DNA from: a virus | IMG/VR virus record: IMGVR_UViG_3300011116_000533 | Span: 1 to 34,092 of that record | Length of the DNA stretch: 34,092 bases | Direction: 5' to 3' (one strand) | Part shown: in pieces, positions 2,657 through 34,092 of the stretch | Layout of the letters: each line of letters starts with the position of its first letter | Position numbering within the stretch: the stretch's first letter is position 1 | Program-made: the position numbers and the translations under genes | The notes under the pieces: model-generated | Database searches by the model: none | Told to the model about the DNA's origin: nothing | Seen by the model: the letters and a program-made list of their open reading frames with translations, nothing else

Positions 2657-3630
2657 TGGCGGACATTCAAGAACTTATCGACTCGAGACAGTACACGATC
2701 GATCGAACCGGCAAGGAAGCCGGAACGCGCGTCTTTCGTGTATTGCAGGTGTCGAACGAAGTCGGCGCGAAGGATGAGTTCCGCAGACTCGCGGGGTTCG
2801 ATCAGTTTCCCGGCGCGTCGAGTGGATGCATCCTCGATAATGTCAGCGTCGAGGCGAAGAACGGAAACACCGTCTTTATCGTTACCGCGAACTATTCGAG
2901 TTTCGGCGGATTCCTGGGACCGCGAAACGATACGTCTTTCCGTCCGTTCATGGGATGGGGATATCGAAAGGTCACGGTAAAACTTCCGTTTCTGTATCAG
3001 GGAACGATTACGACCTCATCCGGCGAAACGGAGGGGGTTACTAATCTGGTCTGGTTCGCGAAGACGGTCGACATCGTCGAGACGCGTCTGATTCGAACTT
3101 ATAAGGTTCGATATAAAACCAGAAGCATAAACGACCTCGATGTCATCGCTGAACAGGATCGGAAACTTCACTTCATAAACGGGAATCAGTATCTCTTCAA
3201 CGGCGCAGACGTTCAGCAGGATTCGAAAGATCCGATGGTCTTTTTCATTACCTACACATGGGAACTCGATAAGGGAACATTCGCGCGCGCTTCTCCGAAA
3301 ATGAAACTCTACATCGCGGGAGATTCCGCGATCAACTTCCCGACGATCCCCAGTCTTCGACAGGATGTTGGGATCCTTTGCGGTTTTAGATCTGGAACTT
3401 CATCGAATCAGTTCATCTCCGAAACATCGGAACATCCTATTCTGATTCGATCCCCATATACGGCGGTCGATCTCGCCGGCGCGGAAGCCGCTCTCACGAT
3501 TCCGAAGCCGACAGGCTATCTCCTGTATGATTACGAAGACGACGGCTGGAAGCGTCTTCCCGGAATCAACCTCATCCCCGCTCCTCCGAATGTGTGGGGA
3601 GATCCGTTCGCTGTGACGCGCGAGGAATAA
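2656..3630 (+). CDS. Tail-tip structural protein, unknown
   Basis: The 324-residue protein starts at an ATG that overlaps the previous stop (TAATG). It looks globular and beta-rich with many aromatic residues, such as SSFGGFLGPRND and FITYTWELDKG, and has no signal peptide or membrane segment. I do not recognise the family. Its place directly after the tape-measure-like gene is where siphoviruses carry the distal tail protein or the baseplate hub, so a tail-tip role is inferred from position only. Confidence 0.45.
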   Translation: MADIQELIDSRQYTIDRTGKEAGTRVFRVLQVSNEVGAKDEFRRLAGFDQFPGASSGCILDNVSVEAKNGNTVFIVTANYSSFGGFLGPRNDTSFRPFMGWGYRKVTVKLPFLYQGTITTSSGETEGVTNLVWFAKTVDIVETRLIRTYKVRYKTRSINDLDVIAEQDRKLHFINGNQYLFNGADVQQDSKDPMVFFITYTWELDKGTFARASPKMKLYIAGDSAINFPTIPSLRQDVGILCGFRSGTSSNQFISETSEHPILIRSPYTAVDLAGAEAALTIPKPTGYLLYDYEDDGWKRLPGINLIPAPPNVWGDPFAVTREE

Positions 3631-9703: not shown

Positions 9704-10097
9704 TCGGTCTCCTGGATCTGATTATCGGGTTCGTCGTCGTCGCTTTACTTGATATGTCTCTTCCGTTCGTCTTCGCGATCGCTTCGCGGAGTTTCGAATC
9801 GGGAACGACCTCGAGCGTGTTATTACTTCGAATATACGCGGCGCGCCAACGGATGACCTCATTCGCGAGGAGCGCGCGATCGGCGCTCAGAGCCTCGATC
9901 GTTTTCTGAAGTTCCGCGACACGCTTCCGCTCGCGCTTCAGTTCCGTAATGCTTACATCGGTCGGATTCGCTTTTTTCTTCCTCGGTCTTCCGTTCGGCT
10001 TAGAACAGACGCAGAGTTTCGCTTTGTTCCGGTAGTAGTTCAGGAGGGAAAGCGCGCGTTGGTGCGTCGCGATGTGAATCATCTCGGGATTGCTCAT
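9570..10097 (-). CDS. Coiled-coil protein with EVxxWRA/AKTN motif
   Basis: The 175-residue protein has an N-terminal helical part, a basic GRPRKKK patch like an AT-hook near residue 36, a coiled coil (about 50-80), then EVIRWRAAYI and LREAIAKTN near residues 80-112. The same EV-x2-WRA and AKTN elements occur in the protein at 11715-11984, on the other side of the mom-dcm pair, so the two are probably paralogues. A strong ribosome site (AAGGAAG) precedes the ATG. The tail beyond residue 130 overlaps rusA out of frame and may be unimportant. Function unknown. Confidence 0.55.
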   Translation of the reverse strand: MSNPEMIHIATHQRALSLLNYYRNKAKLCVCSKPNGRPRKKKANPTDVSITELKRERKRVAELQKTIEALSADRALLANEVIRWRAAYIRSNNTLEVVPDSKLREAIAKTNGRDISSKATTTNPIIRSRRPNDSDSLSAECKSLLPEIPKSCLNIETRSRLSEISRRDVGTDDPA

Positions 10098-10695
10098 TAA
10101 CCCACTTCCTTTCTTCCCATCTCATATTCAGGAGCTTGTCGAAGATCATAACGAATCGATGCTTTCTGGTTCGTTCTCGCCATTCGCCGTCGATACCTCG
10201 AACAATTCCCCTTCGGTGCTTAATGAATGTGCCGTCGTCGTTGCGTATATAAAAGTCGTTTTTGGCGTCGTTAAGACCGTAGTATTTGAAGTTACAAGCC
10301 GCATACACGATGCCATTATGAAAGGCCGAGTCAGCGTAACTAAGAATAGCTCTGACTTCTTTCTCTCGTCTTAGTCGTTTGATACAGCGAGATAAAAACC
10401 ACGATGCTAGATTATGCTCGCTTCTCTGAGTCTCTGGCTCAAGACATAGCCGGCTCAGCTCGAACATTCCAAGTTGATCTTTTCTATCAAGTCCGAACAT
10501 GCTCGTGACAAGTTCAGGCACAGGCAAGTTAGTGAAGATCGCAACGCCGACAAGCTTTCCTTCCTTGAACAGTCCGAAGTTATCGCCGCTCTTGAATCCT
10601 CTCGATATGTTCGACAAGTAGTGGAAGCGTCGCAATATGGTCGCGGCTTCTCTCTTCGAGATCGTGAAAATCTCGAATGCTGACTTATCGCTCAT
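10000..10695 (-). CDS. mom: Mom-like adenine modification protein
   Basis: The 231-residue protein matches the Mom family of phage DNA-modification enzymes, GNAT-fold proteins that in phage Mu convert adenine to N6-carbamoylmethyladenine and block many restriction enzymes. Visible features: RRFHYLSN (H25, Y26), NFGLFKEGKLVGVAIF as the central strands, FELSRLCLEP, SWFLSRCIK, and the strongly conserved-looking SYADSAFHNGIVYAACNF at 119-136. The length is close to Mu Mom. It starts four bases after dcm with GGAG upstream and overlaps the next gene by 98 bases. Its base composition differs from the rest of the genome (see findings). Confidence 0.85.
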   Translation of the reverse strand: MSDKSAFEIFTISKREAATILRRFHYLSNISRGFKSGDNFGLFKEGKLVGVAIFTNLPVPELVTSMFGLDRKDQLGMFELSRLCLEPETQRSEHNLASWFLSRCIKRLRREKEVRAILSYADSAFHNGIVYAACNFKYYGLNDAKNDFYIRNDDGTFIKHRRGIVRGIDGEWRERTRKHRFVMIFDKLLNMRWEERKWVNEQSRDDSHRDAPTRAFPPELLPEQSETLRLF

Positions 10696-10698
10696 CAC

Positions 10699-11715
10699 TT
10701 ACTCTCCAATACAAGCAAGAAGAGTCGTGAACGCATACGCCGCGACCAAAGGGACAACGCCATTTCCACAGGCGCGAAGTCGGTCCACCCGATTGGCCAA
10801 CCCATCATCGATTCGGTGAATATCGGATTCAATCGACGGCGCGAGTTTTTCATCGTGTTCGAGGATTCTTCTCCATGCGTCGAAGTCTTTTGGTCCTGGT
10901 GGGAAATCTGGAAGTTCACTTCCGTCGCTTCGCTCAACTGTCCTCGTCGCTGTCCTAGTTTCGTCGATCCCTTGTGATCGGTTTGGCATGGCGTCGGCCA
11001 GTTCTCCGCAGTCGTTTCGAGATGACCATAGTCTTTCCCGTTCTTGGCTACCCATTTGCCATTCGCGCAACTGACTCGAGGCGTGGGCCAGTTTTGGACC
11101 GCATCCATGATCGTCGGATTCTTTCTCGATCCTCTCGGCTCTCCAGTTAGAACTCGAGCTTCTGGACATCCCGCTGTTACGGTTGGCCACGCCGAGAATA
11201 AAGAGTCGCTCGCGTCGATGCGGCGCGCCGACTTCCTCCGCTGTAAACAATCCCGCCGAATATCTGAAACCCATTTCTTGTAAATCTCGGAGAACGTCGG
11301 CAAGTCCCAATGTGAGATGACCTGCGACATTCTCGAAGAACACGAAGCGAGGTTCGATCTCCTTAGTGATTCGACGGATCTCGGGCCATAAATGTCGAGG
11401 ATCATGTTCACCAAGTCGCTTTCCTGCGCTTGAGAATGGCTGACACGGGTAGCCGCCAGTGATAAGATCCACGACTCCACGCCACGGCTTGCCGTCGAAG
11501 GTTCTAAGGTCGCTCCAGATAGGTGTTGGAGCCAACGCTTTCTCTTCCATGCGAGCCGCCAGGATTGCGGCGGGGAAAGCTTCCCGTTCGATGAAACAGA
11601 TTGGGCGAGCCGCTCCGCTTGTTGCGAGTTCAAGTCCAAGGTCGAGACCTCCGACTCCTGAACAGATGGATAAAGTGTTGATGGGAGATAAATCCACAAG
11701 ATACTTTCCTTTCAT
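10699..11715 (-). CDS. dcm: DNA C5-cytosine methyltransferase
   Basis: The 338-residue enzyme has all main motifs in order: motif I ICSGVGGLDLGL (about 17-28), motif IV GGYPCQPFS with catalytic Cys91, motif VI FFENVAGH with Glu128, motif VIII GAPHRRERLF (163-172) and motif X RACGNGVVP near residue 317. The target-recognition region lies at about 185-300, but the recognised site cannot be read from sequence. It transfers a methyl group from SAM to cytosine C5, presumably protecting phage DNA from restriction. Its ATG overlaps the upstream stop (TAATG). It forms a pair with the Mom-like gene. Confidence 0.92.
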   Translation of the reverse strand: MKGKYLVDLSPINTLSICSGVGGLDLGLELATSGAARPICFIEREAFPAAILAARMEEKALAPTPIWSDLRTFDGKPWRGVVDLITGGYPCQPFSSAGKRLGEHDPRHLWPEIRRITKEIEPRFVFFENVAGHLTLGLADVLRDLQEMGFRYSAGLFTAEEVGAPHRRERLFILGVANRNSGMSRSSSSNWRAERIEKESDDHGCGPKLAHASSQLREWQMGSQERERLWSSRNDCGELADAMPNRSQGIDETRTATRTVERSDGSELPDFPPGPKDFDAWRRILEHDEKLAPSIESDIHRIDDGLANRVDRLRACGNGVVPLVAAYAFTTLLACIGE

Positions 11716-13386: not shown

Positions 13387-13433
13387 AAGAAAAAAGACAG
13401 TGGGGAAAGAGTGTGGATAACTCCTTCCCCACT
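13387..13433 (-). terminator. Rho-independent terminator (minus strand)
   Basis: In the minus sense AGTGGGGAA pairs with TTCCCCACT across a 17-base loop and is followed by GTCTTTTTT. It lies just after the gene at 13452-14129 and just before the promoter at 13346, separating the two units. Confidence 0.6.
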
Positions 13434-14184: not shown

Positions 14185-14496
14185 TTAGTGTTTCCCTCCT
14201 TCCATCGTCCAACTCGAGACCTCACCGTTCAACTCCTCGAACCGTTTCAACGGCCAATAAATCGAGGGTCGATTGTTCAATCCGCAGACGCGCGCGATCT
14301 CTCCCCAGGGAAGGCGCGCGCATTTCGGAGACGTGTGCGCTCTCATCAGCGCGTAAATCTTCCCGCGCGCTACCACGTTCTCATGGGTTCGCGGAGATGA
14401 CAGGATCTCGCGATCTAATCCGGCGCGTCTCAGCGCCGCGATGAGAACCAGTTCCGCGAAATCGACTCTCGGCGATCGGATGACTTTCGTTTTCAT
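14185..14496 (-). CDS. Small DNA-binding protein resembling DnaA C-terminal domain
   Basis: The 103-residue protein reads like the DnaA domain IV helix-turn-helix: NVVARGKIYALMRAHT as the first helix, then PWGEIARVCGLNNRPSIYWPLKRFE, matching the usual pattern of a helix-turn-helix ending in a helix that reads DNA. The ATG at 14496 lies six bases after a GATAAT -10 box, implying a leaderless mRNA. It shares an operator with the divergent plus-strand early operon, so it may be the early switch regulator or may bind the origin repeats. Both roles are inference. Confidence 0.6.
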   Translation of the reverse strand: MKTKVIRSPRVDFAELVLIAALRRAGLDREILSSPRTHENVVARGKIYALMRAHTSPKCARLPWGEIARVCGLNNRPSIYWPLKRFEELNGEVSSWTMEGGKH

Positions 14497-14502
14497 GTTC
14501 CG

Positions 14503-14531
14503 ATTATCCACAAGTCGATAAATCTTGTCAA
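14503..14531 (-). promoter_or_regulatory. Leaderless promoter TTGACA-N17-GATAAT (minus)
   Basis: In the minus sense TTGACA (14526-14531) and GATAAT (14503-14508) are 17 bases apart, a near-consensus sigma70 promoter. The ATG of the DnaA-C-like gene begins exactly six bases after the -10 box, so transcription should start at or next to the start codon. Confidence 0.75.
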
Positions 14532-14544
14532 GCGACTTGACACA
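14524..14544. promoter_or_regulatory. Shared operator with CTTGTCAAG palindrome
   Basis: TGTCAAG-CGA-CTTGACA is a perfect 7-bp inverted repeat, and within it CTTGTCAAG is itself near-palindromic. It covers the -35 boxes of both divergent promoters at once, so one protein bound here would control both directions. The same CTTGNCAAG element occurs twice in tandem at 20827-20845. Confidence 0.65.
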
Positions 14545-14565
14545 TATAAACATCGGCGGGATACT
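14537..14565 (+). promoter_or_regulatory. Leaderless early promoter TTGACA-N17-GATACT (plus)
   Basis: TTGACA (14537-14542) and GATACT (14560-14565) are 17 bases apart. The ATG at 14572 follows the -10 box by exactly six bases, again implying a leaderless mRNA. It drives the replication operon up to the terminator at 19951. Confidence 0.8.
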
Positions 14566-14571
14566 ACCGGC

Positions 14572-14952
14572 ATGGAAACACCGATAAACGTCCTCCTTCA
14601 ACAGTTCAGAGAAAAGCGCGACGCGCTCGATGTCGCGGAGCAAGCCGCGAAAGCGGCGCGCGCGGAGGTTCACGCGCTCGAGACGCAGATCCTCGACACG
14701 CTCGAGGCGCTCGACATCGAATCCGTCGCGGCGGAAGGCTTGAACGTCAAGCGCGTCGAGAAATGGCGCGCGAGATACGATCCGGAGCGCTGGTCTGAAA
14801 TCGTTTCGTGGGCGGTCGCGAACGGCTTCGATTACTTGGTTCAGCGTCGACTGAATGACGCAAAGATAATGGAACTCATCGACCAGGGGATCCGTCTTCC
14901 CGACGGTCTCAGCGTCGAATGTTATTCGGATCTCTCATTTCGCCGATCGTAA
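14572..14952 (+). CDS. Early coiled-coil protein, unknown
   Basis: The 126-residue protein has an N-terminal coiled coil (residues 5-45, EKRDALDVAEQAAKAARAEV) followed by a compact domain: LNVKRVEKWRARYDPERW, then FDYLVQRRLNDAKIMELID and LPDGLSVECYSDLSFRRS. This layout occurs in small early proteins of many phages next to recombination or SSB genes; some are called Gam-like or host-nuclease inhibitors, but I cannot confirm that here. It is the first gene of the early operon, probably translated from a leaderless mRNA. Confidence 0.5.
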   Translation: METPINVLLQQFREKRDALDVAEQAAKAARAEVHALETQILDTLEALDIESVAAEGLNVKRVEKWRARYDPERWSEIVSWAVANGFDYLVQRRLNDAKIMELIDQGIRLPDGLSVECYSDLSFRRS

Positions 14953-20676: not shown

Positions 20677-20799
20677 TCACCATGTATTGAGTTCGACGCC
20701 GGCTTCCTCGAGGGAGAGAAGGAACAGTTCCAACTCCTCCGGAGTTCGGCGGACGTCGAGGTTTCGGGTTTCGGACTTTGGTTCGGTGTTGTTTTCCAT
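20677..20799 (-). CDS. 40-residue protein from a leaderless mRNA
   Basis: A very small gene starts at an ATG six bases after a TATCTT -10 box, matching the other leaderless starts here. The product begins MENNTEPKSETRNLDVRR and continues as an amphipathic helix (ELELFLLSLEEAGVEL). Such short acidic helical proteins are often phage inhibitors or regulators of host proteins. That is inference; no family is recognised. The promoter quality and exact geometry support the gene more than its sequence does. Confidence 0.55.
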   Translation of the reverse strand: MENNTEPKSETRNLDVRRTPEELELFLLSLEEAGVELNTW

Positions 20800-20805
20800 G
20801 CGTGA

Positions 20806-20834
20806 AAGATACCCTCCCTGGCTAGGCTTGTCAA
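20806..20834 (-). promoter_or_regulatory. Leaderless promoter TTGACA-N17-TATCTT (minus)
   Basis: In the minus sense TTGACA (20829-20834) and TATCTT (20806-20811) are 17 bases apart, and the ATG at 20799 follows after six bases. The -35 box lies inside the first of two tandem CTTGNCAAG palindromes. Confidence 0.75.
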
Positions 20835-20845
20835 GTCTTGTCAAG
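20827..20845. promoter_or_regulatory. Tandem CTTGTCAAG operator
   Basis: Two copies of CTTGTCAAG (20827-20835 and 20837-20845) are separated by one base. Only one overlaps a -35 box, so the second copy is hard to explain as promoter sequence and suggests a protein-binding site. The same element is in the divergent operator at 14524. Confidence 0.6.
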
Positions 20846-20875
20846 CGGATACCGAAATAGGGTGTTTTTCTGGTC

Positions 20876-20884
20876 TGGTATTGT
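20876..20884 (+). promoter_or_regulatory. Extended -10 promoter, leaderless geometry (plus)
   Basis: TGGTATTGT fits an extended -10 box (TGn plus TATTGT). The lipoprotein ATG at 20891 follows the -10 box by six bases, as at the other leaderless starts. There is no -35 consensus, consistent with the extended -10 type. Confidence 0.55.
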
Positions 20885-20890
20885 GGAGCG

Positions 20891-21622
20891 ATGAATATGA
20901 AACTTCTCATCGGAATCAGTCTCGCGGCGCTCCTCCTCACGGGATGCGAGTTCACGACGAAATCCCCATTCAGCGGGAAGGAAGTCTCATCGGAAGACCT
21001 GGCGGTCGAGATCCAGACGAAAGACGCGGAGATCGCTTCCGAACAGGCGAAGATCAAGAAAGACGCGGAAGCCAAACTCGCCGACGTCGCGACTGCGAAC
21101 GCGCGCGCGAAGGCGATATTCGCGAAAGCCGTCGCGCGAGTCGAGTCGGACGCGAAATCGCAAATCGACGTCCTTACGGCGGAGTTCGATCAAAATGCGC
21201 TCGAGGTCGAAGCGATTCAGAAACGGATCGTAAATGAGACTCAGGCGGCGATCGCGGATCTCGACGCGCGCCGGCTATCGGCGGAAGCATCCGCGAAAGC
21301 CGCGATCGAACGTCTCGAGGCGAAGCAGGAACGATTTCAGGCGCTTCTCAGCGCGACCCAGGTTCTCTCGGAAGGTTTCGGCGGTCCGATCGGCGGAGTC
21401 GCTTCCGCGATTCTCGGCGCCGGCGGAATGCTCTTCGGAATCGCGAAGCGTCGCGACGCTGTCGCGGCTAAGGAAGCGGCGACTAGGATCGTCGACGCTA
21501 TCGACGTCCTCAAAACCAAGCGACCGGAAGTCGCTCAGGCTTTCAAGGATGAAGCGAAGACGGTCGCGGAGTGGTTGGGTCCGAAGGCGGTCGAGTTCGT
21601 TTCTAAGGTTCAGCAATCATGA
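20891..21622 (+). CDS. Coiled-coil lipoprotein with C-terminal membrane segment
   Basis: The 243-residue protein has a lipoprotein signal with lipobox LLTGC (Cys19). The residue after Cys is Glu, so under Lol rules it should reach the outer membrane. A long Ala/Glu/Lys coiled coil spans about 35-150, then a Gly-rich hydrophobic segment GGPIGGVASAILGAGGMLF at 164-182, followed by a charged helical tail. A lipid anchor plus a membrane helix joined by a coiled coil is the layout of u-spanins, though the tail after the helix is longer than usual. An alternative is a superinfection-exclusion lipoprotein. A second ATG at 20897 has GGAG at the right distance. Confidence 0.55.
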   Translation: MNMKLLIGISLAALLLTGCEFTTKSPFSGKEVSSEDLAVEIQTKDAEIASEQAKIKKDAEAKLADVATANARAKAIFAKAVARVESDAKSQIDVLTAEFDQNALEVEAIQKRIVNETQAAIADLDARRLSAEASAKAAIERLEAKQERFQALLSATQVLSEGFGGPIGGVASAILGAGGMLFGIAKRRDAVAAKEAATRIVDAIDVLKTKRPEVAQAFKDEAKTVAEWLGPKAVEFVSKVQQS

Positions 21623-22495: not shown

Positions 22496-22524
22496 TTGAC
22501 GCGACTTTACATATCCGATATGCT
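22496..22524 (+). promoter_or_regulatory. Promoter TTGACG-N17-TATGCT before the packaging genes
   Basis: TTGACG (22496-22501) and TATGCT (22519-22524) are 17 bases apart and identical to the hexamers of the minus-strand promoter at 13346-13374. A short ATG frame begins six bases after the -10 box. It likely drives the gene at 22575. Confidence 0.75.
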
Positions 22525-22530
22525 CCTGGT

Positions 22531-22578
22531 ATGAAACGCGACCGCAATACCGCGGCGCGAACCGGAGACTTCCGATGA
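22531..22578 (+). CDS. 15-codon leader peptide candidate
   Basis: An ATG six bases after the TATGCT box opens a 15-residue frame, MKRDRNTAARTGDFR, whose TGA overlaps the ATG of the next gene (ATGA), the coupling used throughout the genome. The homologous leader at the 13346 promoter has ATC instead of ATG, so the peptide is not conserved between the two copies. It could be a translated leader or simply leader DNA. Confidence 0.35.
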   Translation: MKRDRNTAARTGDFR

Positions 22579-22868
22579 CGACTGCTTCGATCTGCTTGTA
22601 TGGTGCTCCCCACTGCGGCTTCGGATTCATCGCCGATATCGACGGCGAACTGATCGGAGACGGATCGCTCCGATCTGATCTTCTTTCGCAAGCGATCCGC
22701 GACGCGGCGATCGCTTTGTCTTCCAAGGTCTCGCCTTCGACGATCGTCGCGATCTTCGCTCCTGGTGGCGAGGTCTTCGCGAAGATTGAACTCTCTAAAC
22801 TCTCCGGATACTTCATGCAGGATCTGGTCTGGTATTCGGCTCCGCAGATCAAAATCAGCATCGCCTAA
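22575..22868 (+). CDS. Small protein, unknown
   Basis: The 97-residue protein starts MTTASICLYGAPHCGFGF. It has beta-strand pattern with IADIDGELIGDG, a helix DLLSQAIRDAAIAL and strands TIVAIFAPGG and VFAKIELSK, giving an alpha/beta fold. GGAGA precedes the start, which overlaps a 15-codon leader frame. It stands alone between a promoter and a terminator, as the gene at 13084-13293 does under the matching promoter. Function unknown. Confidence 0.55.
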   Translation: MTTASICLYGAPHCGFGFIADIDGELIGDGSLRSDLLSQAIRDAAIALSSKVSPSTIVAIFAPGGEVFAKIELSKLSGYFMQDLVWYSAPQIKISIA

Positions 22869-33071: not shown

Positions 33072-33728
33072 GTGGCGAACGCGAAGATCACATTTAGGGG
33101 AATGGATAAGTTCCTGAACACGGTTCGACGTGCGGCGTATGCGGGAACTCTCAGCGTCGCGAAACTTGGCCAGAATGATCTCCGCGACAAGGGGTTCTCG
33201 CGAACAGGACGATATCAGTCTTCGCCGGCGGGAACTCCTCCGAACATCCGTCGCGGATTCTTGCGCCGATCGTTTCAGGTCAGAAGCGGAAACAATCTTT
33301 CCGCGTTCATCTGGACCGATTCGAAATACGCTCTCATTCATGAACGCGGCGGAACGATTCGACCCAAGAACGTGAAACATCTCACGGTCCCGAAGAATGA
33401 AGCCGCGGAACGATTCCTCGAGAGTAAGGGGACGAACAGTCTTCGAAGTTACGACTTCATGTTCTTCGTTTCGAAGGGAAAGAAGTTCCTGGTCGCTCAG
33501 TTCGGAGTTCAATCCGGCCAGTATTACACGAACGCAAAAGGAAAGCGCGTTCGCAAAATCTCGAACTACGCTCCTCTGATCGAACTGAAACGATCAGTTA
33601 CGATACCGCGGCGACCATATGTTCGACCGATGATAAAGCGGATCTCAGGAGATCCGGCGCGTAAGGCGTTCAACTTCGCGGCGAACAAGATTCTCGAATC
33701 GGTCTATCCGGGAGTGAGGTTCTCATGA
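33072..33728 (+). CDS. Neck protein (HK97 gp10-like)
   Basis: The 218-residue protein starts with GTG after GAGGTCTGATCC. It matches HK97 gp10-type proteins: FRGMDKFLNTVRRAAYAG at the N-terminus, SPAGTPPNIRRGFLRRSF with the usual P-P-x-x-R-G-x-L-R motif, KYALIHERGG near 95 and RPYVRPMIKR near the C-terminus. It forms part of the head-tail interface. Its stop overlaps the tail-terminator ATG. The other allele's end is seen at 2-64. Confidence 0.75.
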   Translation: MANAKITFRGMDKFLNTVRRAAYAGTLSVAKLGQNDLRDKGFSRTGRYQSSPAGTPPNIRRGFLRRSFQVRSGNNLSAFIWTDSKYALIHERGGTIRPKNVKHLTVPKNEAAERFLESKGTNSLRSYDFMFFVSKGKKFLVAQFGVQSGQYYTNAKGKRVRKISNYAPLIELKRSVTIPRRPYVRPMIKRISGDPARKAFNFAANKILESVYPGVRFS

Positions 33729-34092
33729 ATACGGCGGTTATCGCGCGCGCGGTGCTTACCAGACTGAAGGCGGATTCGACGCTATGGGATACCGTCGGCG
33801 GCGCGTGGAAGACTCCTCTCGCCGGCGGCGCGAGTTTCTCGAAGGGGAATCCCTCGACCCTTGTCTTCCCGTTTCTGGTTTACGGTGTGACGTGGAACGC
33901 GGATCAAAACGCTTTTGACGGGATCGAAGGTCGATCCGAAATCACGTTCTCGATCTATGACGAAGATACGCAGGGAACGTCGAGACTCGAGGTCATCATC
34001 GATCGTCTGATCGGCGACGCGATGCTCTCATCGGGAACGCGATCGGTTCCGACGTATGGGTTTCATAATCATCTCCTCGATCTTCCGGCGCT
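33665..34092. repeat. Right copy of imperfect terminal repeat
   Basis: This stretch corresponds to 1-428 without gaps and with about 30 mismatches. It includes the end of the neck gene and the first 122 codons of the tail terminator. The divergence from the left copy is the reason an exact circularisation check would fail. Confidence 0.9.
33725..34092 (+). CDS. Tail terminator, second allele, truncated by the window
   Basis: The first 122 codons of the gene at 61-570 appear again, starting by ATGA overlap with the neck gene. Of 21 differences from the first copy only two change the protein (Thr to Ile and Pro to Gln), showing purifying selection on both copies. The gene runs off the window edge. 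Confidence 0.8.
   Translation, partial: MNTAVIARAVLTRLKADSTLWDTVGGAWKTPLAGGASFSKGNPSTLVFPFLVYGVTWNADQNAFDGIEGRSEITFSIYDEDTQGTSRLEVIIDRLIGDAMLSSGTRSVPTYGFHNHLLDLPA

Follow-up and report, generated by a model that had tools for sequence, protein, structure and literature searches.

Back-to-back promoters with predicted leaderless starts at a divergent gene junction of a phage genome

Two divergent leaderless transcripts have already been proven in one lambdoid phage, PY54, in which cI and cro are divergently transcribed and both were mapped as leaderless by RACE (PMC4488713). In bacteria, leaderless genes carry a TANNNT motif about 12 bp upstream (Zheng 2011, PMC3160421), and the leaderless genes of Deinococcus have a -10 motif 6-7 bp from the open reading frame (PMC12340547). 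Leaderless genes of the TANNNT type are frequent among the Deinococcus-Thermus and the Actinobacteria (PMC3160421, PMC12340547). Overlapping divergent promoters to which polymerase binds exclusively have been described in EcoRV-type restriction-modification systems (PMC5333194). In lambda, the DnaA protein of the host binds the phage DNA close to a replication promoter (PMC3985674).

The window analyzed here is the full length of IMG/VR record IMGVR_UViG_3300011116_000533, a DNA of 34,092 bp from an uncultivated phage. The two ends of the record (1-428 and 33665-34092) share 93% identity across 427 bp, a pattern resembling that of a contig that makes one full turn of a circularly permuted genome of ~33.66 kb and ends on a variant strain. 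At 14.5 kb, two operons diverge from an intergenic gap of 75 bp (14497-14571). As read from the sequence, the rightward promoter has a -35 box TTGACA (14537-14542, + strand) and, 17 bp after it, a -10 box GATACT (14560-14565; 10/12 consensus positions), followed by the six nucleotides ACCGGC (14566-14571) and the ATG at 14572, giving TTGACA-17-GATACT-6-ATG over 14537-14574. On the minus strand, the leftward promoter has a -35 box TTGACA (14531-14526), a -10 box GATAAT 17 bp after it (14508-14503; 11/12), the six nucleotides CGGAAC (14502-14497) and the ATG at 14496, giving TTGACA-17-GATAAT-6-ATG over 14531-14494. The two -35 boxes are 5 bp apart. An earlier note on this DNA had described two divergent promoters with 17-bp spacers and with exactly 6 nt between each -10 box and its ATG, and both were found at the positions it had given.

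The first gene of the leftward operon (14185-14496, minus strand) encodes a 103-aa helix-turn-helix (HTH) protein resembling DnaA domain IV, with a predicted leaderless start at 14496. The first gene of the rightward operon (14572-14952, plus strand), also with a predicted leaderless start, encodes a 126-aa DUF7307 protein like gp33 of phage Pam3, which matched Pfam PF23984 in a profile search (E 6e-9).

We consider it likely that 14497-14571 is a bidirectional promoter region in which both first genes are leaderless, the back-to-back promoters compete for polymerase, and the HTH protein may tune the outcome. Host RNA polymerase would start at the A of either first gene's ATG from promoters of the sigma-70 type. 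The first genes would then be read from leaderless mRNA and the genes behind them via Shine-Dalgarno sites. Because the -35 boxes are so close together, and because the promoters overlap in relatives, two polymerases would not be there together; one would exclude the other, and the two operons would compete for one entry site, judging from footprint sizes only. It is our conjecture that the leftward product, with its DnaA-domain-IV-like fold, may adjust the balance between the two promoters, perhaps by sitting on its own -10 box.

The entire 34-kb record was scanned for sites matching the sigma-70 consensus at 10/12 positions or more with spacers of 16-18 bp. Only three such sites were found, and in all three an ATG lay exactly 6 nt past the -10 box; 100 dinucleotide shuffles of the record gave no strong site with an ATG at that distance. 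This arrangement of promoters and start codons greatly exceeds what chance would give. The third site, TTGACA-17-TATCTT-6-ATG (20797-20834, minus strand, with the ATG at 20799), opens a two-gene leftward block at a second divergent junction. On the plus strand of the same junction, an extended -10 element, TGG-TATTGT, is followed by 6 nt and an ATG (20876-20893). The gene that starts there, at 20891, encodes a putative lipoprotein and is the first of a rightward lysis, packaging, and structural block that includes the terminase. With the three strong sites and this extended -10 element, all four genes heading divergent blocks have a -10 box in the leaderless position.

In these four block-leading genes, the sequences at -12 to -7 (GATAAT/GATACT, TATCTT, and TATTGT) match TATAAT at 4-5 of six positions, compared to no more than 3 of six in 40 inner genes (p 0.0003, with the gene starts for the comparison chosen by hand). 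They agree with the TANNNT-like -10 box found about 12 bp upstream of leaderless bacterial genes. Most of the inner genes have Shine-Dalgarno (AGGAG-like) sites, and none of the 40 has a -10 box in the leaderless position. Anti-Shine-Dalgarno energy computed over a 21-nt window failed to tell the two gene classes apart (p 0.74), and discriminated between them only with the distance limited to normal Shine-Dalgarno spacings (p 0.011). In six whole genomes of 3.5-11 Mb, picked for having a match, a stricter pattern occurred in 1-11 copies per genome, compared to three copies of a looser pattern in the 34-kb record.

The 20.8-kb junction is spanned wholly or partly by four near relatives, L002, L003, L014, and L015, whose terminases are 93-100% identical to that of the record. 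The 17 + 6 spacing of the leftward promoter is kept in L002, L014, and L015. In L014 and L015, which are without the 40-aa first gene, the ATG of the next gene occupies the same 6-nt distance from the leftward -10 box. At the plus-strand gene, TGG-TATNNT, 6 nt, and the ATG are kept in all four relatives despite diverged bases. The -10 box there reads TATTGT, TATCTT, or TATGGT and is followed by differing six-base tails, invariably with 6 nt to the ATG. As a separate feature of this junction, tandem TTGACAAG copies, 10 bp apart, are present at the leftward -35 box (20829-20847) and are retained in L014 and L015 as TTGACG repeats.

For the 14.5-kb junction, searches found no close relatives of either first protein in viral contigs and none of the plus-strand first protein in the phage collection. 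The sole relatives found, L140 and L141, were reached via the neighbouring SNF2 helicase (58-59% identical), and a search with a DUF7307 alignment returned these two again and nothing further. Distant as they are, both keep the divergent DUF7307/HTH pair. Their DUF7307 homologues are 45-46% identical with the same start, and their HTH homologues (L140:4189-4479 and L141:1868-2158, both on the minus strand) are 36-39% identical and in the same place. These homologous neighbours with the same starts indicate that both genes are real. The plus promoter in L140 and L141 reads TTGACA-17-TATCTT-6-ATG, and the minus -10 box, TATCGT or TATTGT, lies 5 nt rather than 6 before the ATG. Since their intergenic region is only 55 bp, the two promoters overlap; what the junction conserves is a pair of promoters that either abut or overlap. 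The 6-nt geometry beyond chance and its retention in relatives make leaderless starts at both first genes well supported, in line with what the earlier note had proposed for both directions, while the mRNA starts themselves remain predicted.

A search by the exact geometry turned up L004, a phage that has the same divergent promoter pair in front of unrelated first genes. We estimate the chance expectation of such a match in the collection to be well below one. L004 also has a third leaderless-type promoter, at 3403, outside the search pattern. Another match of the geometry scan, L005, is an AT-rich divergent gene pair resembling an IS200/IS605 transposon and was not considered further. In genome contigs, the one-sided pattern gave mostly chance-like loci among the matches listed, and the only two-sided match to a relaxed pattern among those listed was L058, a Lachnospiraceae locus. 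L058 has TATACCGATTGGTATA repeats at both promoters.

The earlier note had described the minus-strand product as a DnaA-C-like HTH protein, a view that the predicted structure favors and the sequence profiles do not. The protein of 14185-14496 gave no credible match in sequence searches of Pfam, PHROGs, and the PDB, and the Bac_DnaA_C profile (PF08299) gave no match above the cut-off in the HTH proteins of the record, L140, and L141. An AlphaFold model was built from a three-sequence alignment (pLDDT 82, pTM 0.76). Its five best PDB structure matches were without exception DnaA or its domain IV (Z 6.0-7.2), including 3pvp (Z 7.2) and 1j1v (Z 6.7) over 84-85 residues; the next, unrelated match had a Z of 3.5. 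Foldseek E-values for the model were weak. The fold as modelled is that of domain IV. In addition, the protein could be aligned with Pam3 gp55, a stand-alone DnaA C-terminal protein and a true Bac_DnaA_C member, with an E of 8e-5 in a single pairwise comparison.

Several other explanations of the 14.5-kb region were weighed against competition between leaderless promoters. The promoters may be ordinary ones, with transcription starting upstream or leaving a leader of a few nucleotides, and the 6-nt spacing may be a by-product of tight packing; the genome is compact, and purine stretches that are weakly Shine-Dalgarno-like lie near some block-leading starts. However, packing alone would not be expected to give precisely 6 nt at each of the four block-leading genes or to preserve this distance through sequence divergence and gene replacement, and no other strong promoter was found upstream, which makes this explanation quite improbable. 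The earlier note had suggested that one operator serves both directions, so that a single repressor, the HTH protein, bound to a palindrome over both -35 boxes would form a genetic switch. The perfect inverted repeat with 7-bp arms on which it relied, TGTCAAG-CGA-CTTGACA (14526-14542), is indeed present, covers both -35 boxes, and is unique in the 34,092-bp record when up to 3 mismatches are allowed; the adjoining gene encodes the DnaA-domain-IV-like HTH protein. However, the repeat consists almost entirely of the -35 boxes, and any two TTGACA boxes placed back to back must look like this. The arm positions are those of the -35 hexamers in six of seven cases, so that one extra base pair is left to explain, with a chance of 1/4. 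Moreover, in L140 and L141 both promoters and the HTH gene are retained, yet the junction has no palindrome. For these two reasons the shared operator is unsupported. DnaA domain IV binds as a monomer to a non-palindromic 9-mer, and the palindrome is thus not its expected site. Regulation of both directions by one repressor on the repeat therefore appears to us very doubtful.

A perfect DnaA box that the earlier note did not include, TTATCCACA (14504-14512, plus strand), overlaps the leftward -10 box. Binding there of either the HTH protein of the phage or the DnaA of its host would block this -10 box, and leftward expression would drop as the HTH protein accumulates or host DnaA becomes free. 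The record has two TTATNCACA sites, compared to a shuffle mean of 0.17, and 1 of 100 shuffles reached two (p about 0.01). The domain-IV-like fold encoded by the neighbouring gene and the lambda example (PMC3985674) are consistent with such a role. However, the DHTT recognition segment of DnaA was not found in the HTH proteins, in which it is altered to NNRPS in the record and to GHTS in L140 and L141. The latter two keep HT and yet have no DnaA box with 0-1 mismatch in their intergenic region. The second perfect box of the record (13412-13420) sits in the loop region of a strong intrinsic-terminator-like hairpin (13399-13433, minus strand). We regard blocking at this box as unlikely, if less so than the two preceding explanations. 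Since a DnaA-domain-IV-like product is encoded beside a perfect DnaA box over its own -10 box, autoregulation of the HTH protein through this box is possible. A bolder version is that the stand-alone protein is a phage transcription regulator that covers the box on its own leaderless -10, and so ties early gene choice to the level of host DnaA in a phage whose blocks all open leaderless; this combination seems to us a long shot. The reading that we prefer remains that of two leaderless promoters competing for polymerase. In view of the HTH gene, one may ask if DnaA-like domains act as transcription regulators in phages.

Farther along the rightward operon are helicase and primase genes for replication, and the leftward operon leads to genes for a lysozyme-like protein, a C5 methylase, Mom, and RusA. 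The Mom-family protein (E 8e-26) and the C5 cytosine methylase (E 2e-34), encoded at 10000-10698 and 10699-11715, suggest that the phage DNA may be modified. Profile searches of the scanned genes, a subset of all genes, gave no integrase and no cI-type repressor. The divergent cI/cro-type repressors and the lysogeny functions (integrase or telomere resolvase) of a lambda- or PY54-type switch were not found in this subset, one of the first genes being DUF7307. The "early switch" of the earlier note is unproven, as both operons are of lytic type, and, judged by the genes that were scanned, the 14.5-kb layout does not appear to be of the cI/cro lysogeny kind.

A promoter-leader cassette is repeated at 22496-22580 (plus strand), 13374-13290 (minus strand), L002:3050, and L140:10270. 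It is made up of TTGACG/A-17-TATNCT, a leader beginning with ATG/ATC-AAACGCG, an 8-bp hairpin, and a gene with a Shine-Dalgarno site. The hairpin is common to all copies, with one compensatory change from U-A to C-G. In the 22496 and L140 cassettes, a 15-codon mini-ORF from the AUG at +1 overlaps the gene start as ATGA.

These observations suggest a rule for the whole phage group, in which the genes heading blocks would be leaderless and the inner genes would have ribosome sites. If this rule is true, the first proteins would be made by 70S leaderless initiation, and there would be a sequence signature by which to recognize real gene starts and the heads of operons in phages that have not been cultivated.

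Compared to the known systems, the 14.5-kb junction shares some features with each. Like PY54 immB, it has divergent phage genes, here predicted to be leaderless from the AUG, with a DNA-binding protein on one side. PY54 immB is a switch for lysogeny whose 16-bp Cro operator has been mapped (PMC4488713), whereas the record has no cI/cro homologue among the scanned genes, its flanking operons are of lytic type, and a shared operator finds no support. As in bacterial leaderless genes, the -10 box lies 6-7 nt before the open reading frame and, by prediction, the leader is absent; in contrast, the record is that of a phage, only block-heading genes are of this type, and they mostly have full TTGACA boxes. 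As in the EcoRV system, two divergent core promoters would not be occupied simultaneously, and a small HTH regulator is a candidate, but the C transcript of EcoRV is not leaderless and its regulator is the C protein rather than a DnaA-domain-IV-like one. In the Pseudanabaena phage Pam3 (ON014755), gp33 and gp34 give their names to Pfam families matching the first two rightward genes, the gp34 match being below the cut-off, and gp55, a stand-alone DnaA C-terminal domain, resembles the HTH protein. Unlike in the record, all genes in the inspected region of Pam3 (22-54.5 kb of its record) are on one strand, and the Pam3 genome has no promoter of the 14.5-kb design. Collectively, the record seems to combine known traits in a phage group in which a leaderless start would be the rule for block-leading genes.
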